DNA from: Candidatus Methylopumilus universalis
Lineage (GTDB): Bacteria; Pseudomonadota; Gammaproteobacteria; Burkholderiales; Methylophilaceae
DNA length: 64,000 nucleotides
Assembly (NCBI RefSeq): GCF_006364435.1
Contig: NZ_CP040977.1
Span: 1,054,001 to 1,118,000, forward strand
Direction of reading: 5' to 3'
Shown here: one piece after another, positions 16,809 through 64,000 of the stretch
Numbering within the stretch: position 1 is the first letter of the stretch
How the letters are laid out: each line of letters opens with the position of its first letter
Notes under the pieces: model-generated
Seen by the model: only the letters and a program-made list of their open reading frames with translations
Told to the model about the DNA's origin: nothing
The model's database searches: none
Position numbers and translations under genes: made by a program

Positions 16809-17720
<912 letters not shown>

Positions 17721-46285: not shown

Positions 46286-47104
46286 TTAATTTTTTGTAAC
46301 TCTTTCAGTAAAAGTATAAATCACATATTGAGGGACTCTTGCAAAGCCAATCAAACATAGTCCATATTTTAACGCAGATCGAATTGCAAGTCCCGTGGGC
46401 GCCGATATTGCAATCAGCGTTGATGCACCTAGCATCACTGTTTTTTGAACCATCTCATAACTTGCTCGACTTGTAGTAATCACAAAACCTTTGCCATTAA
46501 AGCCTTTTTTTTGAAGGGCACCAATTAACTTATCCAAAGCATTATGTCGACCCACATCTTCCCGGACCAACTGAATTTCTCCTTGTTCATTTGCCCATGC
46601 ACATGCATGTGTAGCACCTGTTTTCTTTTGGAGTGATTGCGTTGTATGAAGCGCCTCCAGTGCTTTTATAATCGCAGTCTCTTTAATTGTTAATGTGATA
46701 TCTATCTTTTTTTCTGGCAATCTTAAAGCTTGATCTAAGGTCTCAGCCCCACATAAACCGCAACCAGTTCGGCCAAGAAGATTTCTACGTTTATCTTTTA
46801 ATGATTGAAAACGCGCTGATGTAATTTCAATTTGAAGTTCAATACCTTTCGGCTGATGAACAATTTCAATTCCATAAATATCGCTTTTATTTTCAACAAT
46901 ACCTTCTGAAAAAGAAAATCCTAGAGCAAAATCTTCAAGGTCTGAGGGGGAGGCTAGCATAACTGCATGTGATATGCCGTTATAGACAAATGCAATTGGC
47001 ACTTCTTCTGCAATGTCATCTTTTTCAACTGCTTTTGCATTACTTTTTAAAACTTCATAAGTCTTAAAACTATGTTCTGTGTCAATAAAAAGGTCTTGTG
47101 CCAC
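46286..47104 (-). CDS. fdhD: FdhD/FdsC, sulfurtransferase for formate dehydrogenase Mo cofactor
   Basis: Transfers the sulfido ligand to the molybdenum of FdsA, which is needed for activity. The 272 residues show the GRTGCGLCGAETL motif with the catalytic Cys-x-x-Cys and the later REDVGRHNALDKLIG and TTSRASYEMVQK. It is placed between fdsA and fdsD, as in other Fds operons. Confidence 0.95.
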   Translation of the reverse strand: MAQDLFIDTEHSFKTYEVLKSNAKAVEKDDIAEEVPIAFVYNGISHAVMLASPSDLEDFALGFSFSEGIVENKSDIYGIEIVHQPKGIELQIEITSARFQSLKDKRRNLLGRTGCGLCGAETLDQALRLPEKKIDITLTIKETAIIKALEALHTTQSLQKKTGATHACAWANEQGEIQLVREDVGRHNALDKLIGALQKKGFNGKGFVITTSRASYEMVQKTVMLGASTLIAISAPTGLAIRSALKYGLCLIGFARVPQYVIYTFTERVTKN

Positions 47105-47113
47105 TTGTTAAAT

Positions 47114-49960
47114 CTAATGAATTTTTAATTCTTTAGATTTACCTGCAAATTCAATTTGTTCTTCACTAAAATGTTGGTATTGCTTCTGCCAATCAGATAA
47201 TTGTGTCACTTTATTTACCTGCACAGCTGTTACTTTAAATTCAGGACAGTTTGTTGCCCAATCTGAATTATCAGTCGTGATCACATTAGCACCTGATTCG
47301 GGATGATGGAATGTGGTATAAATCACACCAGGTTGAACTCGCTCTGTAATTTGAGCCCTTAATACAGTCTCACCTGATCGACTCACAATACCCACCCAAT
47401 CACCTGATTGAATACCTCTTTCTTCAGCGTCATGAGGGTGAATCTCAACTAAATCTTCTTCATGCCACGCTACATTCTTCGTTCTTCTAGTCTGTGCACC
47501 CACATTGTATTGAGAAAGTATTCTTCCCGTCGTAAGGATTAGTGGGTATTTCTGAGTCACTTTTTCTGAAGTAGGCACATATTCAGTAATAATAAATTTA
47601 CCTTTGCCGCGCACGAATTCATCAATATGCATTGTCGGTGTGCCAAGAGGATGTTCATCATTGCAAGGCCATTGAATACTTCCTAATTCATCTAGCTTCT
47701 TATAACTTACACCTTTAAATGTTGGTGTGAGTCTTGCAATCTCATCCATGATGTCTGATGCATGGCTATAGTCCATTTTGTAACCTAAGGCATTAGAAAG
47801 CATCTGTGTGATCTCCCAATCTTCGTATCCATTTTTAGGAGACATTACTTTTCTCACTCTAGAAATACGTCTTTCTGCATTTGTAAATGTGCCGTTCTTT
47901 TCTAAGAATGAAGAGCCTGGCAAAAATACATGCGCATACATGGCGGTTTCATTTAAAAATAAATCTTGCACAATGACGCACTCCATCGACTCCAATGCAT
48001 GCGTTACATGTTGTGTATTAGGATCTGATTGAGCGATGTCTTCCCCTTCACAATAGAGTGCTTTAAATTGCCCATCAATAGCAACATCTAACATATTAGG
48101 AATTCTTAAGCCAGGTTCATTTTGTAATTTCACGTCCCATGCTTTTTCAAATAAAGCCAAAGTCGCTTTGTCAGATACATGTCGGTAACCTGGGAATTCA
48201 TGTGGAAACGATCCCATGTCGCAGGCACCTTGAACATTATTTTGTCCTCTTAAAGGGTTAACCCCTACCCCCTCTCGGCCGATGTTGCCTGTCAACATAG
48301 CAAGATTAGCAATGCCCATAACCATCGTTGAGCCTTGACTATGTTCAGTCACACCCAGTCCATAATAAATCGCGGCATTACCACCTTTAGCAAAAAGTTT
48401 TGCAGCGGCTCTTACATCTTTAGCATCTACGCCAGTAAATACGCTCATCGCTTCAGGTGAATTTTCAGGTTTGGTAATAAAGTCTTTCCATGATTTAAAT
48501 GCGTCATCTTCACAACGCGCTTTAATGAAAGAATCATCCATGAGTTTTTCAGTCACAATCACGTAGGCTAATGCATTTACGATAGCAACATTGGAACCAG
48601 GTTTAAGTTTTAAATGATAATCCGCTTTGATGTGAGGTGAGTTATCAACAAGATCAATAGCACGAGGATCGACAATGATAAGCTTCGCACCTTCTCGTAA
48701 ACGTCTTTTCATTTGTGACGCGAATACAGGATGGCCGTCTGTTGGGTTAGCCCCAATGATCATGATCACGTCCGAATGCATGACTGAGTCAAAATTTTGC
48801 GTCCCTGCAGACTCGCCAAGCGTTTGCTTGAGTCCATAGCCTGTGGGTGAATGACAGACGCGTGCGCATGTATCAACATTATTATTACCCAGTGCTGCAC
48901 GGACTAATTTTTGCACTACATAAACTTCTTCGTTCGTACATCGTGAAGATGAAATAGCGCCTACTGAATCACGCCCATATTTTTTTTGAATGCGCTGAAT
49001 TTCACTCGCTGCATAATTAATAGCCACATCCCATGTCACTTTTTCCCAAGGATCATGAATACTTTTACGAATCATCGGTGTAGTGATGCGATCTTTATGT
49101 GTCGCATATCCCCAAGCAAACCTTCCCTTAACACAGGAATGTCCATGATTAGCTCCACCATCTTTGTTGGGTGTCATGCGAACTACTTCTTCGCCTTTCA
49201 TTTCTGCATGAAATGAACAGCCCACACCACAATATGCACAAGTCGTTGTGACACTATGTTCTGGAACACCTGCTTCAATAATTGTATTTTCAATAAGGGT
49301 TGCTGTTGGGCATGCTTGCACGCATGCGCCGCATGAAACGCATTCTGAATCTTTAAAGTCTTTATTCCCTGCTGATACTTTGGAATCAAAACCCCGGCCT
49401 TGAATAGTCAGTGCAAATGTACCTTGAACTTCTTCACATGCTCTGACACATCTTGAACAAACAATGCATTTTGAAGGGTCAAACGTAAAATAAGGATTTG
49501 AAGTGTCTTTAACGCTCTTTAAATGATTTTCACCTTCGTAGCCATAACGCACATCTCGAAGACCAACAGCGCCTGCCATGTCTTGTAATTCGCAATCACC
49601 GTTCGTAGCGCAAGTTAGACAATCCAAAGGATGGTCTGAAATATAGAGCTCCATCACACCGCGTCTAATATCAGCGAGTTTAGGTGTTTGTGTGTGCACT
49701 TTAATACCTTCAGCAACAGGTGTTGTGCATGAAGCTGGATAACCTCGACGACCTTCAATTTCAACTAAGCAAAGACGGCATGAACCAAAGGGCTCTAGAC
49801 TATCTGTAGCACATAATTTAGGAACGGTAACACCGGATAAAGATGCTGCATGCATGACGGATGTGCCCTCAGGCACTGACACAGACACGCCGTCAATTGT
49901 TAAATTAACAGTCTTATCTGAAATTCTTTTGGGCGTTCCAAAATCTTTTACATCATCCAT
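47114..49960 (-). CDS. fdsA: FdsA, NAD-dependent formate dehydrogenase alpha subunit (Mo-bis-MGD)
   Basis: Catalytic subunit that oxidises formate to CO2; cytoplasmic. The 948 residues hold a [2Fe-2S] domain (Cys50, 61, 64, 78), a His-Cys cluster (His110, Cys114, 117, 123), two ferredoxin clusters (Cys165-175 and Cys207-217) and the Mo-domain cluster (Cys241, 244, 248, 276). The Mo ligand is Cys369 followed by His370 (ARVCHSPT), the formate dehydrogenase signature with Cys in place of selenocysteine. The C-terminal half is the MGD-binding region. It is 39 bp after fdsB. The enzyme supplies NADH from C1 oxidation. Confidence 0.97.
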   Translation of the reverse strand: MDDVKDFGTPKRISDKTVNLTIDGVSVSVPEGTSVMHAASLSGVTVPKLCATDSLEPFGSCRLCLVEIEGRRGYPASCTTPVAEGIKVHTQTPKLADIRRGVMELYISDHPLDCLTCATNGDCELQDMAGAVGLRDVRYGYEGENHLKSVKDTSNPYFTFDPSKCIVCSRCVRACEEVQGTFALTIQGRGFDSKVSAGNKDFKDSECVSCGACVQACPTATLIENTIIEAGVPEHSVTTTCAYCGVGCSFHAEMKGEEVVRMTPNKDGGANHGHSCVKGRFAWGYATHKDRITTPMIRKSIHDPWEKVTWDVAINYAASEIQRIQKKYGRDSVGAISSSRCTNEEVYVVQKLVRAALGNNNVDTCARVCHSPTGYGLKQTLGESAGTQNFDSVMHSDVIMIIGANPTDGHPVFASQMKRRLREGAKLIIVDPRAIDLVDNSPHIKADYHLKLKPGSNVAIVNALAYVIVTEKLMDDSFIKARCEDDAFKSWKDFITKPENSPEAMSVFTGVDAKDVRAAAKLFAKGGNAAIYYGLGVTEHSQGSTMVMGIANLAMLTGNIGREGVGVNPLRGQNNVQGACDMGSFPHEFPGYRHVSDKATLALFEKAWDVKLQNEPGLRIPNMLDVAIDGQFKALYCEGEDIAQSDPNTQHVTHALESMECVIVQDLFLNETAMYAHVFLPGSSFLEKNGTFTNAERRISRVRKVMSPKNGYEDWEITQMLSNALGYKMDYSHASDIMDEIARLTPTFKGVSYKKLDELGSIQWPCNDEHPLGTPTMHIDEFVRGKGKFIITEYVPTSEKVTQKYPLILTTGRILSQYNVGAQTRRTKNVAWHEEDLVEIHPHDAEERGIQSGDWVGIVSRSGETVLRAQITERVQPGVIYTTFHHPESGANVITTDNSDWATNCPEFKVTAVQVNKVTQLSDWQKQYQHFSEEQIEFAGKSKELKIH

Positions 49961-49999: not shown

Positions 50000-51553
50000 C
50001 TATGCCTTGAGCTCTTTTGCATCAACCCCAAAATCTTTAGGGAAATGATTTAAAGCACTCAATACTGGATAAGGTGTCATACCGCCCAGTGCACATAAAG
50101 AACCATTTAACATGGTATCTGAGAGATCTCTGATTAATGCGACATGTTTTTTAACTTCTTGGCCATTGATGATGTGATCGATCACTTCGACACCGCGCGT
50201 GGATCCGATCCGACAAGGTGTACATTTTCCGCATGATTCGATAGCACAAAAATCAAATGCATAGCGCGCCATCTTTGCCATATTGACTGTCTCATCAAAC
50301 GCTACAATGCCGCCATGTCCTAATACTGCCCAGATCTCAGAAAATTTTTCATAGTCAAGCGGAGTATCAAATTGAGACTCAGGCAAATAAGCACCCAAAG
50401 GTCCCCCTACTTGCACGGCCTTAATTGGCTTGCCTGACAAAGAGCCACCACCAAAATCGTAAAGGAGCTCTCTTAAAGTAATACCAAATGCTTTTTCAAT
50501 CAATCCCGTCTTTTTTAAATTGCCGGCAAGCTGAATCGGAAGTGTGCCTCTGGATTTACCCATACCAAAGTCTTGATAATACTTAGCACCTTTAGCCAAA
50601 ATAATAGGGATAGTAGCTAACGAAATCACATTATTCACAACGGTCGGTTTACCAAATAAACCTTCAATCGCAGGGAGTGGCGGCTTAAATCTAACCAACC
50701 CTCTCTTGCCTTCTAAGCTTTCTAAAAGTGAAGTTTCTTCACCACATATATATGCACCTGCCGCACGCCTTACTTCTAAATGAAAGGCTTTGCCAGATTT
50801 TAAAATATCGTCGCCTAAGTAGCCTGCGCCCTTGGCTATATCAATAGCTTGATTTAAAGTTTTTAGCGCATGAGGGTATTCAGAACGTAAATAGATATAG
50901 CCTTGTGAAGCTCCGACTGCAAGACCGGCTATGATCATCCCTTCAATGAGCACGAAAGGATCGCCTTCCATAATCATGCGATCTGAATAGGTACCTGAGT
51001 CGCCTTCATCCGCATTACATACAATATATTTTTGTGTCGCTTTAGTGTCTAAAACTGTTTTCCATTTAATCCCTGTAGGAAAAGCAGCGCCGCCTCGGCC
51101 TCGTAAACCAGAATCTGTCACTGTCTGAACAATCGCTTGTGGATTTAAATTTAGTGCATTCTTTAAACCTTGGAACCCCTCATGCTCAATATATTGATCA
51201 ATACTGGTGGGCTCAGTAATGCCCATGCGCGCAAAAGTTAGGCGCTCTTGTTTTTTTAACCAATCGATTTCTGATACCAGGCCTAAGGCAAGAGGATGCT
51301 TACCGCCATTAATAAAATCTGCATCAAATAATGACTTCGCGTCATTTGGATTAATGGGACCAAATCCTATACGACCTTGAACTGTTTCGACTTCAACCAA
51401 TGTTTCTAACCAAAACAATCCGCGCGAACTATTTCGTACGATTTGAATATCTAGTTTTCTGGCTTGCGCTTCTTTTGATATAGCTTCTGCAACTTGATCT
51501 GCGCCAAGTGATAATGCGGTGGAATCTTTCGATACAAAAATTTTAATGCTCAT
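50000..51553 (-). CDS. fdsB: FdsB, formate dehydrogenase beta subunit (NADH/FMN)
   Basis: Passes electrons from FdsA to NAD+. The 517 residues contain an N-terminal thioredoxin-like domain and then the NuoF-like part: [16 protein letters not shown] (FMN and NADH), [21 protein letters not shown] and the [4Fe-4S] motif [12 protein letters not shown]. It overlaps fdsG by 4 bp. Confidence 0.97.
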
Positions 51554-52077
51554 GATGCACGTTTTAAATCTGAAATAAGTTGATCTATTTTTTTACTGTC
51601 TACTCGGCCATAGACTTCTTCATCGATCATCACCGCAGGAGAGCATGCACAATTGCCTAAACAATAAATGGGCTCTAAAGTAATGGCGCCATCAGGGGTT
51701 GTTTCATGAAACTCGACACCGAGTTTATTTTTAATATGATTTTCAAGCGCTTCACTTCCCAAAGCCTGGCAGGATTCTGCGCGACACACTTGAAGAATAT
51801 GACGGCCAGGTTTATGAGATCTAAAATGATGGTAAAAAGTCACAACACCATGGACTTCTGCCACTGACAAACTAAGCCCTTTAGAGATTAAAGGATAGGC
51901 GATTTCTGGCACAAAACCTAAGTCATCCTGGATGGCGTGCAAAAGCGGCAATAAGGCGCCAGGCATAGATTGGTGCTCAAAAATATGCTGATTTATGATC
52001 TTAAGATCATTTGGATTTAAGACAAGGTCTTCCAACGATATCTCCAAATTTTTCTTGAGCAGTTGGCTCAAGAGCAA
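51550..52077 (-). CDS. fdsG: FdsG, formate dehydrogenase gamma subunit ([2Fe-2S], NuoE-like)
   Basis: First gene of the fds operon, a NuoE-like [2Fe-2S] subunit. The late cysteines [10 protein letters not shown] and CLGNCACSP form the cluster site, and [21 protein letters not shown] is the family core. The reading frame can start at TTG 52077, but that codon is only about 11 bp after a TATAAT and has no ribosome binding site. TTG at 52035, preceded by GGAG at 6 bp, is a better start and would give about 161 residues. Confidence 0.93.
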
Positions 52078-52149: not shown

Positions 52150-54273
52150 ATGGGAACACAAACAGAAAGCAAATATTTTCATGGGGGCTGCCCTCATGAC
52201 TGTCCTGACACTTGCTCAATGGTTTATGAGGTAGAAGACAATAAACTCATAGGCGTTAAAGGCAATGCGGATCATCCAATGACGCGTGGTGGTCTGTGTG
52301 TGAAACTTCAAGATTTTGAAAAGCGCCACTACCATCCAGACCGCCTTCTATACCCTATGAAGCGAATCGGTCCAAAAGGTACAAAACAATTTCAAAGAAT
52401 TTCCTGGGACGAAGCGCTCGATACCATAGTTGATAAATGGCAATCCATTATTAAAGAATTTGGTTCAGAAGCCATTATGCCAAACAGCTACTTGGGCAAT
52501 CAAGGCTTGGTGCATGGCATGAACGGGGGAGATTCTTTCTTTGCTCGATTAGGAGCAACCGTTACTGAAAGAACATTCTGCGGAGAAGGCTCGGCCACGG
52601 CTTGGCTGCTAACCCTTGGCCCCACTGCAGGGGTAGATCCAGAGAGCTTTATTCATTCGAAATTTATTATTATTTGGGCTTGTAATTCGGTGAGCACCAA
52701 TATTCACCATTGGCATATTGTTAAAGAAGCGCAAAAAAAAGGCTCAAAGGTTGTTGTCATTGATGCTTATGCTTCAAGAACGGCTAAAGAAGCAGACTGG
52801 CATATTTGCCCTAAGCCTGGCACTGACGGTGCTTTAGCGATGGCAATGATGCATGTGATTATTGAAGAAGGATTGGTGGATCAAGACTATGTAGACAAAT
52901 ATACAGTAGGCTTTCCAGAATTAGCAGAACTGGCAAAAAAGAGAAGTCCTGAGTGGGCAGAAGAAATCACGGGCGTCTCAGCGAATGATATTCGAAAATT
53001 AGCCCGAGAATATGCAACGACCCAACCATCAGCTATCAGAATTGGTGTAGCCCTTGAAAAAAGCTGGGGAGGCGGTCAAGCAATTAGAGCCGTTGCATCT
53101 CTTCCAGCGCTTACTGGAGCTTGGCGCCATGTAGGTGGAGGCATCCTTCAGTTCCCAGTATGGGAGCAACCTTATAGATTTGATGTCATTTGTAGGCCTG
53201 ACTTAATTCCAGAAGGCACGCAAGTTGTTAATAACCTTCAGCTGGGACGTGTTTTAACGGGCGAACAAAAACTAAAAGTGCCTATCAAATCAATGATGTG
53301 CTGGAATACAAATCCCGTCACTCAATCAACGGAAAGCGAAAAAATCTTAGAGGGCTTGAAGCGCGAAGATCTATTTTTAGTTTCCGCAGAACACTTTATT
53401 TCTGATACCGCAGCCTATGCTGATATTCTGCTTCCAGCATCCATGGGGGCAGAACAAGAAGATATCATTTTATCTTGGGGTCATTTATACCTCACCTACA
53501 ATACAAAATGTATAGAATCCCCAGGTGAAGCCGTGCCAAATTATGAAATTTTTAGACGTCTTGCTAAAAGATTTGGTTTTGAAGAAGAATGTTTTAAATG
53601 GTCAGATACTGAATGTCTTCAACATTATATCGACTGGAATTCTCCAGCCTGTAAAGATATTGATTTAGATTATTTAAAAAAACATGGTTATGCGAGAATC
53701 AATGTGGGCACAAAAGATAATCGAGCGCCTCACAAAGAAGGAAAGTTTCCGACACCATCTGGCAAATGTGAATTTAGGATAGTCGGGGCTAAGAATTTTG
53801 TTGCTGGGCCATTTAGGCAAATGTACGAGGCTTTTCAGCCAGGAGATGATATTCCTGAGTTGCCTGATTATGTGCCGTCCAAAGAAACAGCATCCGCAAA
53901 TCCAGCTTTAGCAAAAAAATATCCATTAAATATTTTGGCACCAAAAAGTCATGGTTTCATTAATTCAAGTTACGCCAATATCGACAATAAACTCAAGGCC
54001 CAAGGAGAGCAGTTTGTGATGATTCATCCATTGGACGCAGAAGAAAGAGGCATTAAAAATGGCGATCGAGCTAAAGTATTTAACGATCGAGGTTTTTTTG
54101 AAGCTGTATCAAAAATAACAACCGATGTTAATAAAGGAATTGTAGTGACAACGTTGGGCTATTGGAGACAACTAAATAATGGCGTCGTCAATTCAGTGAG
54201 CTCCAATGCTTTTGGTGATATGGGAAACTCACCAACTTCCCATGATTGCTTGGTCGAAGTTCAATTAGCTTAA
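52150..54273 (+). CDS. Second molybdopterin oxidoreductase (formate dehydrogenase-like, substrate uncertain)
   Basis: A 707-residue Mo-bis-MGD enzyme without a Tat or Sec signal, so cytoplasmic. It has an N-terminal [4Fe-4S] site Cys14, 18, 22 and 50 (CPHDCPDTC, later GGLCVK), the MGD-binding core (LTLGPTAGVDPESF, IWACNSVSTNIHHWH) and a C-terminal barrel (MIHPLDAEERGIKNGDRAKVFNDRG). The probable Mo ligand is Cys144 in RTFCGEGSA, followed by Gly rather than the His of formate dehydrogenases. I use ATG 52150, which has AAGGGG upstream, rather than TTG 52132. It is divergent from fdsG and followed by moaA, so a C1 or formate role is likely but not shown. Confidence 0.85.
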   Translation: MGTQTESKYFHGGCPHDCPDTCSMVYEVEDNKLIGVKGNADHPMTRGGLCVKLQDFEKRHYHPDRLLYPMKRIGPKGTKQFQRISWDEALDTIVDKWQSIIKEFGSEAIMPNSYLGNQGLVHGMNGGDSFFARLGATVTERTFCGEGSATAWLLTLGPTAGVDPESFIHSKFIIIWACNSVSTNIHHWHIVKEAQKKGSKVVVIDAYASRTAKEADWHICPKPGTDGALAMAMMHVIIEEGLVDQDYVDKYTVGFPELAELAKKRSPEWAEEITGVSANDIRKLAREYATTQPSAIRIGVALEKSWGGGQAIRAVASLPALTGAWRHVGGGILQFPVWEQPYRFDVICRPDLIPEGTQVVNNLQLGRVLTGEQKLKVPIKSMMCWNTNPVTQSTESEKILEGLKREDLFLVSAEHFISDTAAYADILLPASMGAEQEDIILSWGHLYLTYNTKCIESPGEAVPNYEIFRRLAKRFGFEEECFKWSDTECLQHYIDWNSPACKDIDLDYLKKHGYARINVGTKDNRAPHKEGKFPTPSGKCEFRIVGAKNFVAGPFRQMYEAFQPGDDIPELPDYVPSKETASANPALAKKYPLNILAPKSHGFINSSYANIDNKLKAQGEQFVMIHPLDAEERGIKNGDRAKVFNDRGFFEAVSKITTDVNKGIVVTTLGYWRQLNNGVVNSVSSNAFGDMGNSPTSHDCLVEVQLA

Positions 54274-54284
54274 TTAAATTGACA

Positions 54285-55289
54285 ATGCAGAGCTCTCCCT
54301 TTATGGGATTAACAGATCAATTTCATCGAAAGATTAATTATCTTCGATTATCAATTACCGATCGATGCGATTTTCGTTGTGTTTATTGTATGAGCGAAGA
54401 TATGCAATTTTTACCTCGTGACGAAGTTCTTTCTCTTGAAGAATCTGCAAGAATTATAAAAATTTTTGCTTCTCTTGGTGTCACAAAAGTAAGGATTACG
54501 GGTGGTGAGCCTTTAGTTAGAAAAAATATTTCGTGGCTTTTTCATGAAATATCAACTATTAAACCTCTAAAAGAAATTGTCATTACAACGAATGGTAGTC
54601 AGCTAGCGCAGCATGCGCATATGCTTAAAATGTCTGAAGTTAAACGTATTAATATTAGCCTTGATAGTCTTGATCCTGTTCTTTTCAAAAAAATCACACG
54701 CTCGGGTGACTTAAATAAAGTACTGCTCGGTATTGATGAAGCCATCAAAGAAGGCTTTTCGAATCTCAAACTTAATACCGTTTTAATGAAAGGAATCAAT
54801 GATCACGAAGCAATCGATTTGGTTAACTTTGCATTACATAAAAAGATGGATATTTCTTTTATTGAAGAAATGCCTTTGGGTGACATTGACCATAAAAGAA
54901 AAGATACTTTTATCAGTAATAATGAAGTCTTAAAAAAATTACAGGCTCATTTTAATTTAATCCCCACCACTTTTTCTTCTGGCGGTCCTGCTAAATATTG
55001 GCAAATTGCAAATCAATCTTCTAAGATTGGTTTTATTTCTCCGCACAGTCATAATTTTTGCGACACGTGTAATCGCGTTAGGGTTTCATCTAAGGGCGAA
55101 TTATTTTTATGCTTAGGGCAGGAAGAAAAAATTGAGCTCATGCCTCTTTTACGTCAGCACCCAAATGAAGACTGGCCAATTCAAAAAGCTATTATAGAGA
55201 GCATGGCGATCAAACCAGAAGCACACGACTTTAATCTTGATGCAACAAAACCTGCTGTTGTACGATTTATGTCGCATACCGGAGGTTAA
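54285..55289 (+). CDS. moaA: GTP 3',8-cyclase MoaA (molybdenum cofactor)
   Basis: Radical-SAM enzyme for the first step of molybdopterin synthesis. It has DRCDFRCVYCM for the SAM-bound cluster, the C-terminal cluster CDTCNRVRVSSKGELFLCLG, and the required Gly-Gly end (MSHTGG). I choose ATG 54285; the open frame reaches back to 54246, inside the previous gene, and ATG 54303 is also possible. It is 11 bp past the oxidoreductase stop. Confidence 0.96.
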   Translation: MQSSPFMGLTDQFHRKINYLRLSITDRCDFRCVYCMSEDMQFLPRDEVLSLEESARIIKIFASLGVTKVRITGGEPLVRKNISWLFHEISTIKPLKEIVITTNGSQLAQHAHMLKMSEVKRINISLDSLDPVLFKKITRSGDLNKVLLGIDEAIKEGFSNLKLNTVLMKGINDHEAIDLVNFALHKKMDISFIEEMPLGDIDHKRKDTFISNNEVLKKLQAHFNLIPTTFSSGGPAKYWQIANQSSKIGFISPHSHNFCDTCNRVRVSSKGELFLCLGQEEKIELMPLLRQHPNEDWPIQKAIIESMAIKPEAHDFNLDATKPAVVRFMSHTGG

Positions 55290-55295
55290 ATTCAA

Positions 55296-55871
55296 ATGAG
55301 TAAGTCAGCCACTGTAGTCATTTTAGCGGGTGGCCAATCAAAGCGGATGCAAGTTCAAAATAAAGCGATTATTTTATTTGAAGGTAAGCCCTTGATAGCT
55401 CATGTCATTGACCGCATGAAGGTTCAGGCAAAATATACCGTCATCAACACACATCGAAATCAAAAGGATTATGAAATATTTCATTTGCCACTTATTGATG
55501 ACATATCAGATGTCCAGGAGGGTCCACTTTTAGGTATCTTAACCAGCCTTCAAGCAATCAAAACGGATTGGATACAATTTGTACCTTGCGATACGCCCTC
55601 CCTGCCAAGCAATCTCATTGCAATATTAATGAAAGCAGTCGAATCCGAAAAAACTTTAGTTGCAGTACCTGAAACGAGTGGCGGTTTGCAGTCAACTTGT
55701 CTTTTATGTCACTCATCAACCTTAAATAATCTTCAGATTTTTTTCAATCAAGGGGGACGAAAAATTGAAGACTGGATTCGTCAGTTACCTTTTTCAATTG
55801 TGCCATTTAATGATGAGTCACAATTTTTAAATGTAAACACTCAAGAAGAATTGAAAAAAGCATATTCATGA
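55296..55871 (+). CDS. mobA: Molybdenum cofactor guanylyltransferase MobA
   Basis: Attaches GMP to molybdopterin to give the MGD form needed by the formate dehydrogenases in this window. The 191 residues show the N-terminal ILAGGQSKRMQVQNKA loop with the key Gly-Gly and Lys, and the metal site FVPCDTPSLP. It overlaps moeA by 4 bp and follows moaA by 6 bp. Confidence 0.94.
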   Translation: MSKSATVVILAGGQSKRMQVQNKAIILFEGKPLIAHVIDRMKVQAKYTVINTHRNQKDYEIFHLPLIDDISDVQEGPLLGILTSLQAIKTDWIQFVPCDTPSLPSNLIAILMKAVESEKTLVAVPETSGGLQSTCLLCHSSTLNNLQIFFNQGGRKIEDWIRQLPFSIVPFNDESQFLNVNTQEELKKAYS

Positions 55872-57145
55872 AAAATAATATACATTTAAGTGATTTAATT
55901 TCAGACTCTAGTATGGCGGATGATTATGATCCTAATGCGATGTCTGTTGAAAAGGCCAAAGCTTGGATTGCTAATTTTTTAAATCCCATCGATCAAAAAG
56001 AAACAATCCATATTAAAGATGCGCTTAATCGCATTCTTGCTGAACCTATTATCGCCACAATGAATGTGCCTAATCACGACAATTCAGCAATGGATGGTTA
56101 TGCGATAAATCTAGATTTACTCTCCGATAATGGCCCTTTCAAGCTCAAGGTCACGGGTAAACTTTTTGCAGGGAACCTCTTAGAAGGCAATGCAGAAGAA
56201 GCTGTGCGTATTATGACGGGCGCAATAATTCCTTCTGGATTAAATGCTGTAATTCCTCAAGAGCATGTTGAACTCAATGAAGGTGTTATTACATTTAAAA
56301 CAAAACCTCAAATAAACCAAAACATTCGACACATGGGTGAAGATATTAAAAGTGGGCAAATAGTTCATCAAAATGGTCGACGTATAGAGCCCTGTGATTT
56401 AGGTCTATTTGCCTCATTAGGTATCGACTCGATTAGTGTTTACAGAAAAATTAAAGTGGCTTTTTTTTCAACGGGTGACGAAATCATTTCGCTCGGTAAC
56501 CCCTTGTTACCTGGCCATGTGTATGACAGTAATCGCTACAGCCTGATTGGTCTATTAAAACGTCTTGATGTAGAAATGTTCGATCTTGGCATTATCCCTG
56601 ATGATAAAAAAGTCATTGAGGATACATTGAAAAAAGCGAGCAATATCGCTGATATCGTCATTACCACTGGAGGTGTTTCTGTGGGCGAAGCAGATTACAT
56701 GAAAGACATTTTAAAAAAAATAGGTGAAATTTTATTTTGGAAAATTTCTATGAAGCCTGGAAGGCCTCTGGCTTTTGGGAAAATTGGTAAGTGTCATTAT
56801 TTTGGACTTCCAGGAAATCCTGTGTCGACTATGGTCACTTTTTATCAATTTGTAAGAGAGGCTATTCTGACTTTATCAGGTCAAACACCCATCCCTAAAA
56901 TACCACTTATTAAAGCAAAGCTTCTAGGACCTATTAAAAAAATTCCCGGTCGAACGGAGTTTCAAAGGGGCATTTATGAGCAAGATAATCAAGGTATATT
57001 CAAAGTGAGTCCTTTAAAAGACCAAGGATCTGGAATCTTAAGATCCATGTGTGAAGCTAATTGCTTTATCCTCCTTCATGAAGATACCGCGCATTTAGAA
57101 AAAGATACATGGGTGGATATTCAATTATTTGATAGTCTTATTTAA
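55868..57145 (+). CDS. moeA: Molybdopterin molybdenumtransferase MoeA
   Basis: Inserts molybdenum into molybdopterin. The 425 residues include the N-terminal MNVPNHDNSAMDGYA with a catalytic Asp, RIMTGAIIPSGLNAVIPQE, STGDEI, VYDSNRYSL, TTGGVSVGEADYM and GLPGNPVSTMVTF. It closes the four-gene Mo operon that begins with the second molybdopterin oxidoreductase. The remaining Moa genes are not in this window. Confidence 0.96.
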   Translation: MKNNIHLSDLISDSSMADDYDPNAMSVEKAKAWIANFLNPIDQKETIHIKDALNRILAEPIIATMNVPNHDNSAMDGYAINLDLLSDNGPFKLKVTGKLFAGNLLEGNAEEAVRIMTGAIIPSGLNAVIPQEHVELNEGVITFKTKPQINQNIRHMGEDIKSGQIVHQNGRRIEPCDLGLFASLGIDSISVYRKIKVAFFSTGDEIISLGNPLLPGHVYDSNRYSLIGLLKRLDVEMFDLGIIPDDKKVIEDTLKKASNIADIVITTGGVSVGEADYMKDILKKIGEILFWKISMKPGRPLAFGKIGKCHYFGLPGNPVSTMVTFYQFVREAILTLSGQTPIPKIPLIKAKLLGPIKKIPGRTEFQRGIYEQDNQGIFKVSPLKDQGSGILRSMCEANCFILLHEDTAHLEKDTWVDIQLFDSLI

Positions 57146-59113: not shown

Positions 59114-60281
59114 CTTAAAAGTTTCAGAAGGTTTTGTTCCTTTATTGATTGCACAGTTTTTATCAGCGCTTGCTGATAATGCACTTTTATTTGCAGCTAT
59201 TGCATTACTCGCGCAGCTTAATTCTCCTCAATGGCATCAGCCTCTCCTGCTTCAATTTTTTGTGATCTCTTACATTATTTTGGCGCCTTTTGTAGGTGGT
59301 ATCGCAGATGCTTATCCCAAAGGTCGTGTCATGTTTTATTCCAATGCTATTAAATTTATTGGAAGTTTATCTATGTTGTTAGGTATGCAGCCTCTCTATG
59401 CATATGCGATTGTTGGTGTAGGTGCTGCGGCATACTCGCCTGCAAAGTATGGGATTTTGACTGAGCTTCTCCCGCCTAAAGAGCTTGTAATGGCTAATGG
59501 ATGGATGGAAGGTTCAACAGTCTTTGCAATTATTTTAGGCTCCATTATTGGAGGTGCACTCGCTCAATTTGACCCTCTAGTTGCCATCATTATAATTACA
59601 GGGCTTTATTTACTCGCTGCTGTTTTTAATCGTTACATTCCATTACTTCCTATCGATCACAAACTGACAAAAAAGAATCCTCTATTTATGATAAAAGATT
59701 TCTGGCATGCATTTAAAGTGTTATGGAAAGATCCCGAAGGTCAATTATCTCTTGCAGTGACCACGCTCTTCTGGGGCGCTGGGGCTTCATTAAGATTAAT
59801 TGTCATTGCATGGGCAGGCTATGCATTACACTTTAATTTAGAAGAGGCGACGCGCTTAACAGCTATGGTTGCTTTTGGAATTGCCATTGGATCAGTCATA
59901 GCAGCTCGCTATATCAGTCTTAAGGATTCAGTGAGGGTTCTGCCAGCCGGCATTCTTATGGGTGGCTTTGTGATGACTATGGTTGTGATCCATGATTGGC
60001 ATATCGCAGCTCTTATATTTTTGTTGATTGGAGCATTAAGTGGATTCTTTATTGTGCCATTAAATGCACTCCTTCAACATCGGGGTCATTTGCTTATTGG
60101 TGCAGGCCACTCGATTGCTGTGCAAAACTTTAATGAAAATATTGGGATTCTTTTATTAAGTGGTACTTACACATGGATGGTAAGAGAAGAATTTTCAATC
60201 AATACTATTATTATTCTTTTAGGTTTATTTGTCAGCGTCGCTATGCTGGCCATTTACAAACACTACAAAAAAATTATTTAG
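59094..60281 (+). CDS. lplT: Lysophospholipid transporter LplT-like MFS protein
   Basis: A 395-residue major facilitator protein with about 12 helices. The LplT signatures FLSALADNALLFAAIALL and VGGIADAYPKGRVMFYSN, and the helices with GAGHSIAVQNFNENIGILLLSG, are present. LplT flips lysophospholipids inward for re-acylation by Aas; no aas gene is adjacent. It starts inside the 3' end of the PhoH gene (20-bp overlap) and its stop overlaps the convergent ndh stop by 4 bp. Confidence 0.88.
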   Translation: MLLKRFNLKVSEGFVPLLIAQFLSALADNALLFAAIALLAQLNSPQWHQPLLLQFFVISYIILAPFVGGIADAYPKGRVMFYSNAIKFIGSLSMLLGMQPLYAYAIVGVGAAAYSPAKYGILTELLPPKELVMANGWMEGSTVFAIILGSIIGGALAQFDPLVAIIIITGLYLLAAVFNRYIPLLPIDHKLTKKNPLFMIKDFWHAFKVLWKDPEGQLSLAVTTLFWGAGASLRLIVIAWAGYALHFNLEEATRLTAMVAFGIAIGSVIAARYISLKDSVRVLPAGILMGGFVMTMVVIHDWHIAALIFLLIGALSGFFIVPLNALLQHRGHLLIGAGHSIAVQNFNENIGILLLSGTYTWMVREEFSINTIIILLGLFVSVAMLAIYKHYKKII

Positions 60282-61585
60282 TGCAACTTAACTTGCGCTT
60301 CCGTTCTGCGTGTAATGATGCGAGCGAGTGTTTGAAGCGCTGTACTCATAAATCCATGAAGTGCCATCAAATGCATTTTATAAAGTGATTGGTACATAAG
60401 TCTTGCAATAAATCCTTCAATAAACATTGATCCGCCCATTAACGAGCCCATCAAATTACCTACGGTTGAATACTCCCCCATATTCACAAGAGAGCCGTAA
60501 TCTTTATAAATGTATTGCGGTAAATTCACTTTACCTTTGACGCGCATCTTCATTGACTTGAAAAGAAGCGATGCTTGCTGATGCGCTGCTTGCGCTCTTG
60601 GTGGTACAAATTGATCGGTGCCATCAATGGGGCACGCTGCACAATCTCCAAATGCAAAAATAGAATCATCTCTCGTTGTTTGAAGTGTTGTATGAACTAA
60701 TAGTTGATTAATGCTATTCGTTTCCAATCCATCTATTTTTTTTAAGAAGTCAGGCGCTTTAACACCGGCCGCCCATACGACTAACGCTGAAGGAACAAAT
60801 CGTTTAGTGTGCGTCGTTACCCCTTTTGCTGAAACCGAAGTTACACGCTCCCCCATATAAAGATGCACACGTAATTTACGTAATTCCAATTCTACGGAAT
60901 GTGATAATTTTTTAGGCAGTGCTGGAAGTAAGCGAGGACTTGCTTCAATGATGGATATTTTAATATCTCGATCAGGATTGACGCGATCAATGCCGTATGC
61001 AGTCATTTCACGTGTAGCTTTATGAAGTTCTGCTGCAAGCTCTACGCCTGTAGCGCCCGCACCTACGATGACCACTTCAAGTTGGCCTGGCTGAATCGCC
61101 TTTTTTTGTGTTTGTGCTTTTAAAATAGCATGGTGTAATTTTTGATGAAATACTTCAGCTTGCTCTTGTGTATCTAATGCAATCGAATGTTCCGCCGCAC
61201 CCTTGATGCCAAAATCATTGGTAGTGCTGCCTACAGATATAATTAATGTGTCGTATTGAAAACTTCTTCTTGGAATAATTTCTTTACCGTCTTCATCGAT
61301 GTAGGGTGCAATCGATACTTCCTTCTTATGTCGATTTAATCGATCCATGCGGCCTAAACGAAAACGAAAATGATGCCAATGTGCTTGTGCCATGTATTCC
61401 AATTCATGCTTATCAGGATTCATGCTCCCCGCAGCAATCTCATGAAGAAGGGGTTTCCACACATGCGTTTTTGTGCAGTCGATAAGTGTAATTTCAGCCT
61501 TTTTCTTTTTACCAAGCGAATCACCAAGCTTTGTTGCAAGTTCTAGTCCGCCTGCACCGCCACCTACTATCACAATCTTATGCAT
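60278..61585 (-). CDS. ndh: NADH dehydrogenase type II
   Basis: Single-subunit FAD enzyme passing electrons from NADH to quinone without pumping protons. The 435 residues have FAD-binding IVIVGGGAGGLELATKLGD and NADH-binding VVIVGAGATGVELAAELH, then IFAFGDCAACP. A hydrophobic or amphipathic C-terminal region fits membrane attachment. It lies 24 bp before the xoxG terminator and is separately controlled. It can recycle the NADH made by Fds. Confidence 0.94.
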   Translation of the reverse strand: MHKIVIVGGGAGGLELATKLGDSLGKKKKAEITLIDCTKTHVWKPLLHEIAAGSMNPDKHELEYMAQAHWHHFRFRLGRMDRLNRHKKEVSIAPYIDEDGKEIIPRRSFQYDTLIISVGSTTNDFGIKGAAEHSIALDTQEQAEVFHQKLHHAILKAQTQKKAIQPGQLEVVIVGAGATGVELAAELHKATREMTAYGIDRVNPDRDIKISIIEASPRLLPALPKKLSHSVELELRKLRVHLYMGERVTSVSAKGVTTHTKRFVPSALVVWAAGVKAPDFLKKIDGLETNSINQLLVHTTLQTTRDDSIFAFGDCAACPIDGTDQFVPPRAQAAHQQASLLFKSMKMRVKGKVNLPQYIYKDYGSLVNMGEYSTVGNLMGSLMGGSMFIEGFIARLMYQSLYKMHLMALHGFMSTALQTLARIITRRTEAQVKLH

Positions 61586-61609
61586 TTCACTTCCTTAAAT
61601 ACAGACAAT

Positions 61610-61647
61610 AAAAAACCACTACTGTAATTATACAGGAGTGGTTTTTT
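61610..61647 (-). terminator. Terminator after xoxG
   Basis: An 11-bp outer stem (AAAAAACCACT / AGTGGTTTTTT) and an inner CTGTA / TACAG with loop ATTA, 34 bp past the xoxG stop. T-runs occur on both strands. Confidence 0.88.
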
Positions 61648-61681
61648 AAAATTTTCTAGAAATTATCTAGGGTTTTTGAAA

Positions 61682-62170
61682 TTACTCGTTACCTGTAATT
61701 GTTCCTTGCGCACGAACCCATGCAATAACTTTTAACATTTCATCGACTTTAAGTCCGTTTGTAGGATCCGTAGCATCCATCACACCTAGGCCTTTTCCAC
61801 CCATACCGCCGTTTGTGCCATGCCATAAAGTTTCAAACATACCTTTGTTTGTGGCATCTTTAGGATAACGGAATGTTGGGCCAATGAGACCTGGGCCTAC
61901 TTGACCCTTTGCATCGCCACCATGACATTGAGTGCATGAATAAAGTCCAAAAAGCTTTTTACCTTTTGCAACCGCTTCTGCATTACCCACATAAGAATTT
62001 TTACCAGTCGCTAAAAATTCTTTTGCTGCCGGCGTATCAAAGAGTGCTGGATCAAGTTTAAATGTACTTCCATCTGTTGTTTTTACAAATGAAACATCAG
62101 CAGATGCGATACCTGCAATTGTCATCATAGAAACTAAAAGTGATGACATGAGTACTTTTTTTACTAACAT
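61682..62170 (-). CDS. xoxG: XoxG, c-type cytochrome electron acceptor of XoxF
   Basis: Periplasmic cytochrome c of 162 residues. The N-terminal Sec signal peptide ends near IASA-DV (about residue 24). One heme site CTQCH is present, and a likely axial Met in the GMGGKGLGVMD region. XoxG accepts electrons from XoxF in lanthanide-dependent methanol oxidation. The assignment rests on the single heme, size and position after xoxJ and xoxF. A strong AGGAG precedes its ATG. Confidence 0.92.
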   Translation of the reverse strand: MLVKKVLMSSLLVSMMTIAGIASADVSFVKTTDGSTFKLDPALFDTPAAKEFLATGKNSYVGNAEAVAKGKKLFGLYSCTQCHGGDAKGQVGPGLIGPTFRYPKDATNKGMFETLWHGTNGGMGGKGLGVMDATDPTNGLKVDEMLKVIAWVRAQGTITGNE

Positions 62171-62294
62171 AATTTCTCCTAAAAATTGCGTTAATCTTGA
62201 AGGGTGTTCGCTCCAAAATATAAATTCTAATAAGCTGTTTTATCTTCCAAAAAATCTAAGAAAACATACAGCAATGTTACTCATTTTTTGTTAT

Positions 62295-62319
62295 AAAGTC
62301 ACCCTTTTAGAGTGACTTT
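62295..62319. terminator. Weak hairpin between xoxJ and xoxG
   Basis: An 8-bp inverted repeat AAAGTCAC / GTGACTTT with a 9-base loop just after the xoxJ stop. The T-run is on the plus side only, so terminating strength for xoxJ on the minus strand is doubtful. The 156-bp gap up to xoxG holds no other gene and no clear promoter. Confidence 0.4.
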
Positions 62320-62326
62320 TTTAACT

Positions 62327-63199
62327 TTACTTACCTGTCTTATCGCCCAGAACGACTGGCACATGAGGGATGCCATAATCATCTAAAATTTTTAAAATTT
62401 TAGATTGATTTCTATCAAGCGCACCTTGGACCATTTCCATGCGGTCTTTATCTTTCTTTCTAACTGCGAGAGAAATATTAAATTCTGCTTGACCCTTTTG
62501 AGTGTCAAATGAATTTCGTTCAGATTTAAACGCAGGAAGCGGAACAACCACTAAAGGCTCCTTAGCTTTTTTTGCATAGTAGCCTCCTAGAGGTCCCCAT
62601 ATAATAGCAACATCAATTTTTCCTGCGACTAAATCATCGATCATATGGCCTGGCGGTAAATTTAGATCTCTTTGTAATCGGTAAGGACGAGCATTCGCCA
62701 TAAGATCATAATCGCGCAATGGAATGGTCGGTGGGCTTTCACCTACGATACCAATAATACCTTTTCTTAAGTCTTCCGAATTCCAATCCTTTATATTGTA
62801 GTTACTTGATTTTCGATACACGAATACATAGCCAGAGCGATAATAAGGTTTGGAGGTACGTAATGTATCCACATCTGATCCCATCCCAATAATCACATCA
62901 CAGCGTTGCGCATTAATCGTGTTTCTTAAATAGCCCTGACGATCGAGCCAAAATTCATAAGTCAGTTCTTTACCTAAATCTTTTGCTAAAACTTCTGCAA
63001 TTTTATTTTCAAAGCCCTCGCCTTTTTGATTTGAGTAAGGCAAATTTTCTGGGTCAGCGCACACTCTAAATTCTTTATCCGTAGGAGTTCGATATGGCAT
63101 CCCAGGTAAACCATCTTCACGGTCCTGTCCTACAGCAAACGCATTCCCTACAAAAGCTAAATTCATTACATATAAAAACATTACTATTTTTTTAAACAT
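62327..63199 (-). CDS. xoxJ: XoxJ, periplasmic binding-protein-like partner of XoxF
   Basis: Extracellular solute-binding-like protein of 290 residues, with an N-terminal signal peptide (hydrophobic 5-20, cut near AFA). The core FRVCADPENLPYSNQKGEGFENKIAEVLAKDLG and VIIGMGSDVDTLRTSKPYYRSGYVFV are family features. XoxJ is thought to help mature or activate XoxF. It lies between xoxF and xoxG, the usual order, and a strong terminator separates it from xoxF. Confidence 0.93.
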   Translation of the reverse strand: MFKKIVMFLYVMNLAFVGNAFAVGQDREDGLPGMPYRTPTDKEFRVCADPENLPYSNQKGEGFENKIAEVLAKDLGKELTYEFWLDRQGYLRNTINAQRCDVIIGMGSDVDTLRTSKPYYRSGYVFVYRKSSNYNIKDWNSEDLRKGIIGIVGESPPTIPLRDYDLMANARPYRLQRDLNLPPGHMIDDLVAGKIDVAIIWGPLGGYYAKKAKEPLVVVPLPAFKSERNSFDTQKGQAEFNISLAVRKKDKDRMEMVQGALDRNQSKILKILDDYGIPHVPVVLGDKTGK

Positions 63200-63239
63200 T
63201 TTTTTTCCTTACCAGTTAAATATCAAGGGCCCTATAAAA

Positions 63240-63267
63240 AAACACCCCGCTCGAAAGCGGGGTGTTT
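63240..63267 (-). terminator. Strong terminator after xoxF
   Basis: A perfect stem AAACACCCCGC / GCGGGGTGTTT with a TCGAAA loop (closing pair and CGAA tetraloop), followed on minus by a run of T. It is 50 bp after the xoxF stop and before xoxJ, so xoxJ gets only readthrough or its own promoter. Confidence 0.92.
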
Positions 63268-63279
63268 ATAGGACATACT

Positions 63280-63294
63280 AACTAACAGTTAGTT
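63280..63294. repeat. 15-bp palindrome in the xoxF 3' UTR
   Basis: AACTAAC-A-GTTAGTT, a perfect 7-bp inverted repeat around one base, between the xoxF stop and its terminator. Function unknown; possible processing or protein site. Confidence 0.45.
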
Positions 63295-63316
63295 CTATAA
63301 AAAATCTTTCGATTAA

Positions 63317-64000
63317 TTATAGGCTAAATACTGTTAAAGCACCGCCGCCAGGAGCAGCATTGTACTTAGTAAGTTCAGCATAACCACCAGCAGCGCCAAG
63401 AGCGTCTGTTGGGTTAGTTAAGCCAAGGTTCATTGCAACGCCAGCCCAACCACCGATGCCTGATAAAACGCCAACGTGTTGTTTGCCACCGTTTGTGTAT
63501 GTGAATGCATTACCAATCACACCTGAACCAACTTGGAATTTCCAAAGTTCTTTACCTGTCTTAGCGTCAAGAGCTTTGAACCAACGATCAAGAGTTCCGT
63601 AGAATACTAAGTCTGAAGCAGTATTTAAAGAACCACCCCAAGCTGAGAACTTCTCTTTGTTGTACCAAGCTTTTTTGTTAGTCATTGGATCATAAGCAGC
63701 AAAGCCACCCATTACACCGTCTGGACCAGCAAACATCGTTAATGTTGCACCAACCCATGGTTGACCTGCTACATACTTAGACTCAACTGGTTCGTATGTC
63801 ATACATACGTGGTTAAGTGGTGAGTAGATAAGGCCAGTCTTAGGTGAGTAAGATGCTGGTTGTTGATCTTTTGTACCCAATGCAGCTGGGCATACACCCT
63901 TAGCATTGTAGTCTTGGTGTGTAGAAGCTGTAGCTAACTTGTTAGGTACACCAGATTTTTTGTCAATGTCAGTTGCCCAGTTAACAAATGGATGTACTTT
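63317..64000 (-). CDS. xoxF: XoxF, lanthanide-dependent PQQ methanol dehydrogenase (C-terminal part)
   Basis: Periplasmic quinoprotein that oxidises methanol. Only about 227 C-terminal residues are in the window; the frame is open to base 64000, so the gene continues beyond. The section starts KVHPFVNWATDIDK and includes VCPAALGTKDQQPASYSP, LIYSPLNHVCMTYEPVE, GPDGVMGGFAAYDPMTNKKAWYNKEKFSAWGGSL and LDAKTGKELWKFQVGSGVIGNAFTY, which are typical of the beta-propeller blades. Downstream xoxJ and xoxG support XoxF over MxaF. The lanthanide-binding Asp lies upstream of what is visible, so metal type is inferred. Confidence 0.94.
   Translation of the reverse strand, partial: KVHPFVNWATDIDKKSGVPNKLATASTHQDYNAKGVCPAALGTKDQQPASYSPKTGLIYSPLNHVCMTYEPVESKYVAGQPWVGATLTMFAGPDGVMGGFAAYDPMTNKKAWYNKEKFSAWGGSLNTASDLVFYGTLDRWFKALDAKTGKELWKFQVGSGVIGNAFTYTNGGKQHVGVLSGIGGWAGVAMNLGLTNPTDALGAAGGYAELTKYNAAPGGGALTVFSL

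Follow-up and report, generated by a model that had tools for sequence, protein, structure and literature searches.

A methylotroph-linked molybdenum oxidoreductase, apparently distinct from formate dehydrogenase, encoded beside the fds genes of Candidatus Methylopumilus universalis

The window, a stretch of 64,000 nucleotides from the single-contig genome (1,304,290 bases) of Candidatus Methylopumilus universalis, encodes two molybdenum enzymes back to back. The reverse strand carries the genes of an NAD-linked formate dehydrogenase (FDH), namely fdhD (formate dehydrogenase accessory sulfurtransferase; 46286..47104, TIGR00129 above cut-off), fdsA (alpha subunit; 47114..49960, TIGR01591 at 932.6 bits, above cut-off), fdsB (NuoF-like beta subunit; 50000..51553) and fdsG (gamma subunit; 51550..52077, NF004638 above cut-off). 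Divergent from fdsG, the forward strand encodes an orphan Mo-bisMGD oxidoreductase of 707 aa (52150..54273, from the ATG at 52150 to a stop ending at 54273). It is followed on the same strand by moaA (GTP 3',8-cyclase; 54285..55289, probable start ATG 54285, TIGR02666 above cut-off), mobA (molybdenum cofactor guanylyltransferase; 55296..55871, TIGR02665 above cut-off) and moeA (molybdopterin molybdotransferase; 55868..57145, NF007960 above cut-off), at spacings of 11 nt, 6 nt and a 4-nt overlap, respectively. These four genes apparently form one operon headed by the enzyme gene. The initial annotation had proposed this operon; the gene order agrees with it, and co-transcription is what we infer from that order. 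The annotation had added that the enzyme has first claim on cofactor supply, a priority that gene order does not imply.

Past moeA, peroxiredoxin-like, PhoH-like and transporter-like open reading frames were seen by eye. A C1 cluster starts ~6 kb downstream of the molybdenum enzyme (60278-64000, reverse strand) and comprises a pyridine-nucleotide oxidoreductase (60278-61585), a cytochrome c that is a candidate XoxG (61682-62170), a solute-binding-like protein that is a candidate XoxJ (62327-63199) and a XoxF-like methanol dehydrogenase whose gene is cut by the window end. Passages of PMC3728764 note that conserved xoxF-xoxJ-xoxG clusters include an oxidoreductase of unassigned function. With the fds genes and the XoxF-like cluster nearby, the neighbourhood is therefore rich in C1 genes. 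The enzyme gene adjoins fds genes in 5/5 genomes sampled from the window's genus, this one among them, and in 0/4 from the genus g15. Ten other Methylophilaceae loci, inspected by eye, have different neighbours, among which no gene for the Mo cofactor or for electron transfer was recognised; moaA lies directly 3' of the enzyme gene in one further Methylophilaceae bin (L034). Elsewhere in the window, the forward strand encodes a 517-aa protein (15255-16808) that combines an N-terminal Cro/C1-type helix-turn-helix with amino-acid kinase and GNAT acetyltransferase domains and is directly followed by an argB-like frame (16836-17720, by eye). Its make-up suggests an N-acetylglutamate synthase carrying a DNA-binding domain of its own.

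The Molybdop_Fe4S4, Molybdopterin and Molydop_binding models all scored above their Pfam cut-offs in the orphan enzyme, placing it in the Mo/W-bisMGD (DMSO reductase) superfamily and confirming that a second enzyme of this kind accompanies FdsA. Its 4Fe-4S cluster motif is C14-x3-C18-x3-C22-x27-C50 (CX3CX3CX27C), and the candidate metal ligand is Cys144, within ERTFCGEGSA and next to Gly145. As the initial annotation had stated, no signal sequence was seen by eye at the N-terminus. Structure prediction, one of the checks it had proposed, gave a confident model (pLDDT 92.1). Comparison of this model with known folds, among the 50 matches listed, returned Z scores of 28.4-35.5 that did not distinguish between FDH, Nap, Pcr, acetylene hydratase, DMSOR and Aio; the fold points to no one subfamily and was dropped as a means of choosing between them. 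Most likely, the gene product is a one-subunit oxidoreductase of the Mo (or W)-bisMGD type, predicted to be cytoplasmic, whose metal is bound by a cysteine and which has a single 4Fe-4S cluster.

Among the matches listed, the enzyme is 98% identical to a protein of an LD28 metagenome bin and 89% identical to one of Ca. Methylopumilus universalis. The best 80 loci listed, which as the nearest matches of a genome scan say little about frequency, came from Methylophilaceae, Methylophaga, Methylobacter, Methylobacterium, Methylopila, Methyloceanibacter and Hyphomicrobium, and further from Chelatococcus, Bradyrhizobium, alpha- and gammaproteobacterial bins, some actinobacteria, a cyanobacterial MAG and rhizobia. 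One plasmid copy, in Bradyrhizobium sp. CB82 (L017, 7001-9103), is interrupted by an in-frame stop, at a place where the incomplete gene table lists no gene. Within the Methylophilaceae, the enzyme was found in 14/24 genera, in 9/9 genomes sampled from g1 and g15, two genera with small genomes, and in 0/4 genomes of g20, whose genomes are also small (1.6-1.8 Mb). An even draw of 397 Pseudomonadota genomes contained 11 carriers of members at ≥53% identity. A XoxF-like dehydrogenase was present in 9/11 of these carriers compared to 26/386 of the other genomes (p 5.6e-9), where XoxF-like denotes a match at E 1e-120 or better, mostly a partial alignment of a longer frame, and the matches may include other PQQ dehydrogenases. 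These rows contain the window's own genome and are not independent; counting by genus as a check gave 7/8 carrier genera compared to 14/224 others. The proposed link of the enzyme to methylotrophy is supported. Relatives at 40-43% identity, 16/17 of them in the window's order, showed no clear link (XoxF-like genes in 4/17 genomes, p 0.05), and their neighbours revealed no informative pathway in the 7/17 read by eye.

An earlier suggestion was that the enzyme acts on another C1 compound. Its methylotrophic side stands, and the C1 substrate remains a candidate reading, in which a methylotroph-specific enzyme would oxidise a C1-linked metabolite such as a formaldehyde adduct, formamide or a methylated N or S compound. 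We regard such an oxidation as the main rival to the reductive role favoured below, given how strongly the enzyme co-occurs with XoxF-like genes in genomes and genera alike, and the presence of the enzyme in every sampled g1 and g15 genome is in keeping with it. Against it stand the carriers among actinobacteria, rhizobia and a cyanobacterial MAG in the matches listed, the absence from all four g20 genomes and the XoxF-like genes in just 4/17 of the more distant relatives. Moreover, no C1 gene was recognised, by eye and with a model search for a few clusters, in the gene clusters common to at least three of the 70 neighbourhoods described below. On balance, C1 oxidation appears rather unlikely.

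The initial annotation had contrasted the Cys-His pair of FdsA with the cysteine of the orphan enzyme, which lacks the FDH histidine, and both readings were upheld. FdsA has Cys369-His370 and, in addition, an R571-G572-Q573 loop. Across 99 distinct family sequences, Cys144 was found in 99/99 and His145 in 0/99, position 145 being G in 70, D in 13, A in 7, E in 6, T in 2 and I in 1. Gly145 is not diagnostic of the family, and Cys144 is no chance motif. This set holds sequences at ≥49% identity; it omits four loci with short sequences or unknown residues (L017, L018, L080, L105) and four rows below 49% (L019-L022). FdhF and YdeP of E. coli, the FdsA of the window and one FDH4-type protein from Methylophilaceae all have the Cys(Sec)-His pair and an RG(Q/H) loop; in an alignment of these four with 28 rows of the family, the family rows have the Cys alone and nothing that corresponds to the loop. 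In formate dehydrogenases, this His and the Arg of the loop are catalytic. The Arg site is occupied by Pro336 of the orphan enzyme in a pairwise alignment to HDCR FdhF. Lys52, which follows the last cluster cysteine, is invariant in the family alignment and aligns with an FDH lysine that is studied in passages of PMC12176258. Glu140, His186, Trp188 and Trp338 are further invariant residues. The Fdh-alpha model TIGR01591 gave 275 bits for the orphan enzyme against a cut-off of 666, and its best NCBIfam match, TIGR02166, gave 328 bits, below the cut-off of 777.7.

Phylogenetic comparison with Mo-bisMGD enzymes, another of the proposed checks, points in the same direction. Three maximum-likelihood trees with different row sets separated the family, its BelN-like relatives and DmsA from FdhF, FdsA, NapA, NasA, YdeP and an FDH4-type protein (split support 100/97, 100/99 and 100/100), and the fullest tree also put BisC and PhsA on the family's side. 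A tree joining the family with FdhF and FdsA, without the BelN-like and DmsA rows, was rejected (AU p 3e-40), a rejection that partly reflects the closeness of the BelN-like rows to the family. Since the orphan enzyme has no Arg at the FDH site, in addition to lacking the His, and lies apart from the tested FDH types on the trees, the alternative formate dehydrogenase suggested initially is unlikely; the enzyme is probably not a second FDH. A non-canonical formate dehydrogenase or CO2 reductase, coupled to ferredoxin and using Cys144 without the His/Arg pair, would be compatible with the fds genes adjoining it in 5/5 genomes of the window's genus, with XoxF-like genes in 9/11 carriers and with NADPH-ferredoxin partner genes near relatives, which could collect its electrons. 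We judge this version improbable too, as the family has neither the Cys-His pair nor the RG(Q/H) loop, scores far below the Fdh-alpha cut-off and is separated from FDH types by the trees.

FDH4, the specific likeness proposed for the enzyme, proved to be a separate family. According to passages of a Pseudomonas putida paper (PMC10308882), Fdh4A of M. extorquens (Methylorubrum) is 59% identical to FdhF/YdeP-type oxidoreductases. FDH1 and FDH4 are listed for Methylophilaceae in passages of PMC4109929 and PMC3728764 that do not name the window gene. The FdhF/YdeP model TIGR01701 gave the orphan enzyme 72 bits against a cut-off of 582, and genes above this cut-off form separate loci in 13/60 Methylophilaceae genomes. 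Both FDH4-type proteins tested have Cys-His and RGH, which the orphan enzyme lacks. In all three trees, YdeP groups with the FDH4-type protein of one Methylophilaceae genome (G053) at 100/100, apart from the family. An FDH4 identity was therefore rejected. The orphan enzyme occurs in 39/60, FDH4 in 13/60 and both in 3/60 of the genomes (Fisher p 7e-4), a pattern of mutual exclusion that was considered as a sign of shared function. It reflects few independent events and was dropped because no signal was left on a SecA tree (54/60 genomes, quick method), which offered 4-5 independent pairs and on which each trait needs at least five changes.

Two further alternatives are very improbable. A non-redox enzyme like acetylene hydratase would fit the best PDB profile match (E 1.5e-76; second by single sequence) and the lack of the FDH His in both proteins, but Asp13, a functional residue beside the cluster of acetylene hydratase, aligns with the invariant Pro19 of the family, and redox partner genes lie beside some relatives. 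An assimilatory nitrate reductase would fit the ligand cysteine, the lack of a visible signal peptide and the ferredoxin gene near relatives, but the family lies apart from NasA and NapA on all three trees, the NasC model gave 182 bits against a cut-off of 1100, and pelagic Methylophilaceae are reported, in passages of PMC6794327, to lack nitrate reduction genes, Ca. Methylopumilus and OM43 having no more than ammonia transporters.

The closest relatives with a proposed role are BelN-like proteins. BelN of belactosin biosynthesis is predicted to reduce a nitro group and is described together with belK, belL and belM in passages of PMC10764440. Relatives of the orphan enzyme occur in a belK-belL-belM-belN-like order in Streptomyces and Agrobacterium vitis, a match based on annotations, with genes for an iron-containing redox enzyme, a 2OG-Fe dioxygenase and a diaminopimelate epimerase alongside. 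The BelN-like relative is 43% identical to the Allorhizobium family member and 37% identical to the window enzyme; its best NCBIfam matches, Fdh-alpha (264 bits) and dmsA_ynfE (258 bits), are both far below cut-off. The family, the BelN-like rows and a Paenibacillus row form a clade that excludes DmsA and FDH (100/99, 100/99 and 99/99), into which the fullest tree also brings Azospirillum and Ruegeria rows. The exact sister of the family is weakly supported (85/51, fullest tree), and the tree tool flagged long branches and the uneven composition of a BelN-like row. No nitro-amino-acid biosynthesis genes were seen by eye in the window, the ten Methylophilaceae loci or the clusters of the 70 neighbourhoods. 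On the A. vitis plasmid, the BelK/BelL/BelM/BelN-like set (L121, 5197-10076) follows an iron response regulator and a fatty acid desaturase, and could be a nitro-amino-acid pathway outside actinobacteria.

Gene neighbourhoods were compared for 70 loci (L013-L016, L034, L035, L039 and L041-L112 minus L042-L044, L049-L051, L061, L075 and L078; L033, L036-L038, L040 and the plasmid loci L017-L022 were also left out). Six-frame open reading frames were clustered, antisense clusters were ignored, and labels were taken from the annotation of the records or from a model search with a single member, with moaE and moaD labelled by reading. Because many loci end near the enzyme gene, the counts are lower bounds. 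An FprA/adrenodoxin-reductase-type protein was found in at least 14/70 neighbourhoods (one tested, E 8e-82 to FprA), a 7Fe ferredoxin in at least 12/70 (one member tested) and moaA in at least 11/70; the ferredoxin and the FprA-type NADPH-ferredoxin reductase occur together in at least 12-14/70. In Methylophaga, Allorhizobium and Agrobacterium, the enzyme gene is followed by those of the ferredoxin, the reductase and MoaA, in that order; Thioclava has a moeA-type gene in last place instead. Regulators of AraC type (at least 8) and MocR type (at least 4) also recur. A small lumazine-binding-like protein, encoded near the enzyme in L056, L060, L087 and L092 (a PF12893 match in the single one tested), is a possible functional partner. 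The statement that no electron-transfer subunit adjoins the enzyme thus holds for this genome and fails for about a fifth of relatives' neighbourhoods (at least 14/70). Some ferredoxin match was present in 59/60 Methylophilaceae genomes, and an FdxA-type ferredoxin is encoded in the window's genome, as is a 2Fe-2S/FAD/NAD reductase. For the FprA-type reductase, the 60 genomes gave partial matches at 25-33% identity and no true relative. The missing electron-transfer subunit is therefore probably a soluble ferredoxin whose gene can lie elsewhere.

Kinship with BelN-like proteins and the NADPH-ferredoxin chain favour the reduction of an N-O or S-O compound. We tentatively propose that the enzyme is a ferredoxin-fed reductase of such a compound, from an apparently uncharacterised orthologous group other than FDH, without claiming that this is the larger part of the probability. 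Electrons would pass from NADPH through a flavin ferredoxin reductase and a 7Fe ferredoxin to the 4Fe-4S cluster and the molybdenum, which would remove oxygen from an N-O compound (nitro, hydroxylamine, N-oxide) or an S-O compound formed or met within methylotrophic cells. In Methylophilaceae, a general FdxA-type ferredoxin may serve as donor. Location, reductive direction, use of this ferredoxin and substrate class are all points that we infer. Several observations weigh against a reductase: the nitro role of BelN is itself a prediction and the bel gene-order match comes from annotations only; the sampled Methylophilaceae have no true FprA-type relative; acetylene hydratase and FDH chains top the profile search; and DmsA and BisC have Ser, not Cys. 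NADPH-ferredoxin chains can run in either direction, flavoprotein domains of FprA type also serve formate dehydrogenase complexes (weak matches), and the association with XoxF, like that with fds in one genus, fits C1 oxidation as much as reduction.

A bolder form of the ferredoxin-fed reductase is a long shot, less probable than either the C1 oxidation or the non-canonical FDH considered above: an unrecognised Mo enzyme of XoxF-type methylotrophy that, driven by ferredoxin, would clear or recycle an N-oxygenated compound that arises in C1 metabolism, would share its origin with the predicted nitro reductase BelN, and would have been retained through streamlining in freshwater and marine pelagic methylotrophs. 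As streamlined pelagic methylotrophs keep few genes, a conserved Mo enzyme with no assigned substrate leaves the minimal C1 pathway, as now accepted, incomplete. The enzyme is at risk of being mistaken for a second formate dehydrogenase, an error that would distort models of how formate is oxidised in lakes and oceans. The question can be put to the test, since the orthologous group is defined, has residue signatures and likely electron donors, and includes carriers that can be cultured (Methylophilus, Methylobacterium, Methylopila).

The orthologous group is not named in the literature searched (listings and passages of largely open-access papers), and is apparently an uncharacterised, methylotroph-linked group within a known superfamily, distinct from formate dehydrogenase. 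FdhF and FdsA share with the window enzyme the fold, the 4Fe-4S cluster, the position of the Cys (Sec) ligand and Lys52, whereas the window enzyme belongs to another clade and has neither a His after the Cys nor the RGQ loop. FDH4 (Fdh4A) is likewise a methylotroph Mo enzyme that accompanies FDH1, but FDH4-type proteins have Cys-His and RGH and are encoded by separate genes, which co-occur with the orphan gene in 3/60 genomes. Acetylene hydratase resembles the enzyme in its Cys ligand, its lack of the His and its rank in the PDB profile search, and differs at Asp13, where the window enzyme has Pro19. PhsA (thiosulfate reductase) also has Cys without His in the ligand column and, in the fullest tree, groups on the same side as the family, but its branch is very long, its identity is 28% over 64% of the query, and its gene is accompanied by phsB and a gene for a cytochrome b subunit. 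DmsA and BisC lie on the same side of the tree, with TIGR02166 the best NCBIfam match, but have Ser in the column of Cys144 and ~23-31% identity; E. coli dmsA adjoins dmsB and dmsC, whereas the window gene has no such neighbours in this genome. The BelN look-alikes, nearest of the relatives with a proposed role, adjoin genes for an iron-containing redox enzyme and a 2OG-Fe dioxygenase, neither of which lies near the window gene, and have Cys-Ser-Ile-Ala in place of Cys-Gly-Glu-Gly at 37% identity. They match the window enzyme in length, in domains and in a Cys followed by a residue other than His, a likeness read from the Streptomyces and A. vitis proteins rather than from BelN itself.
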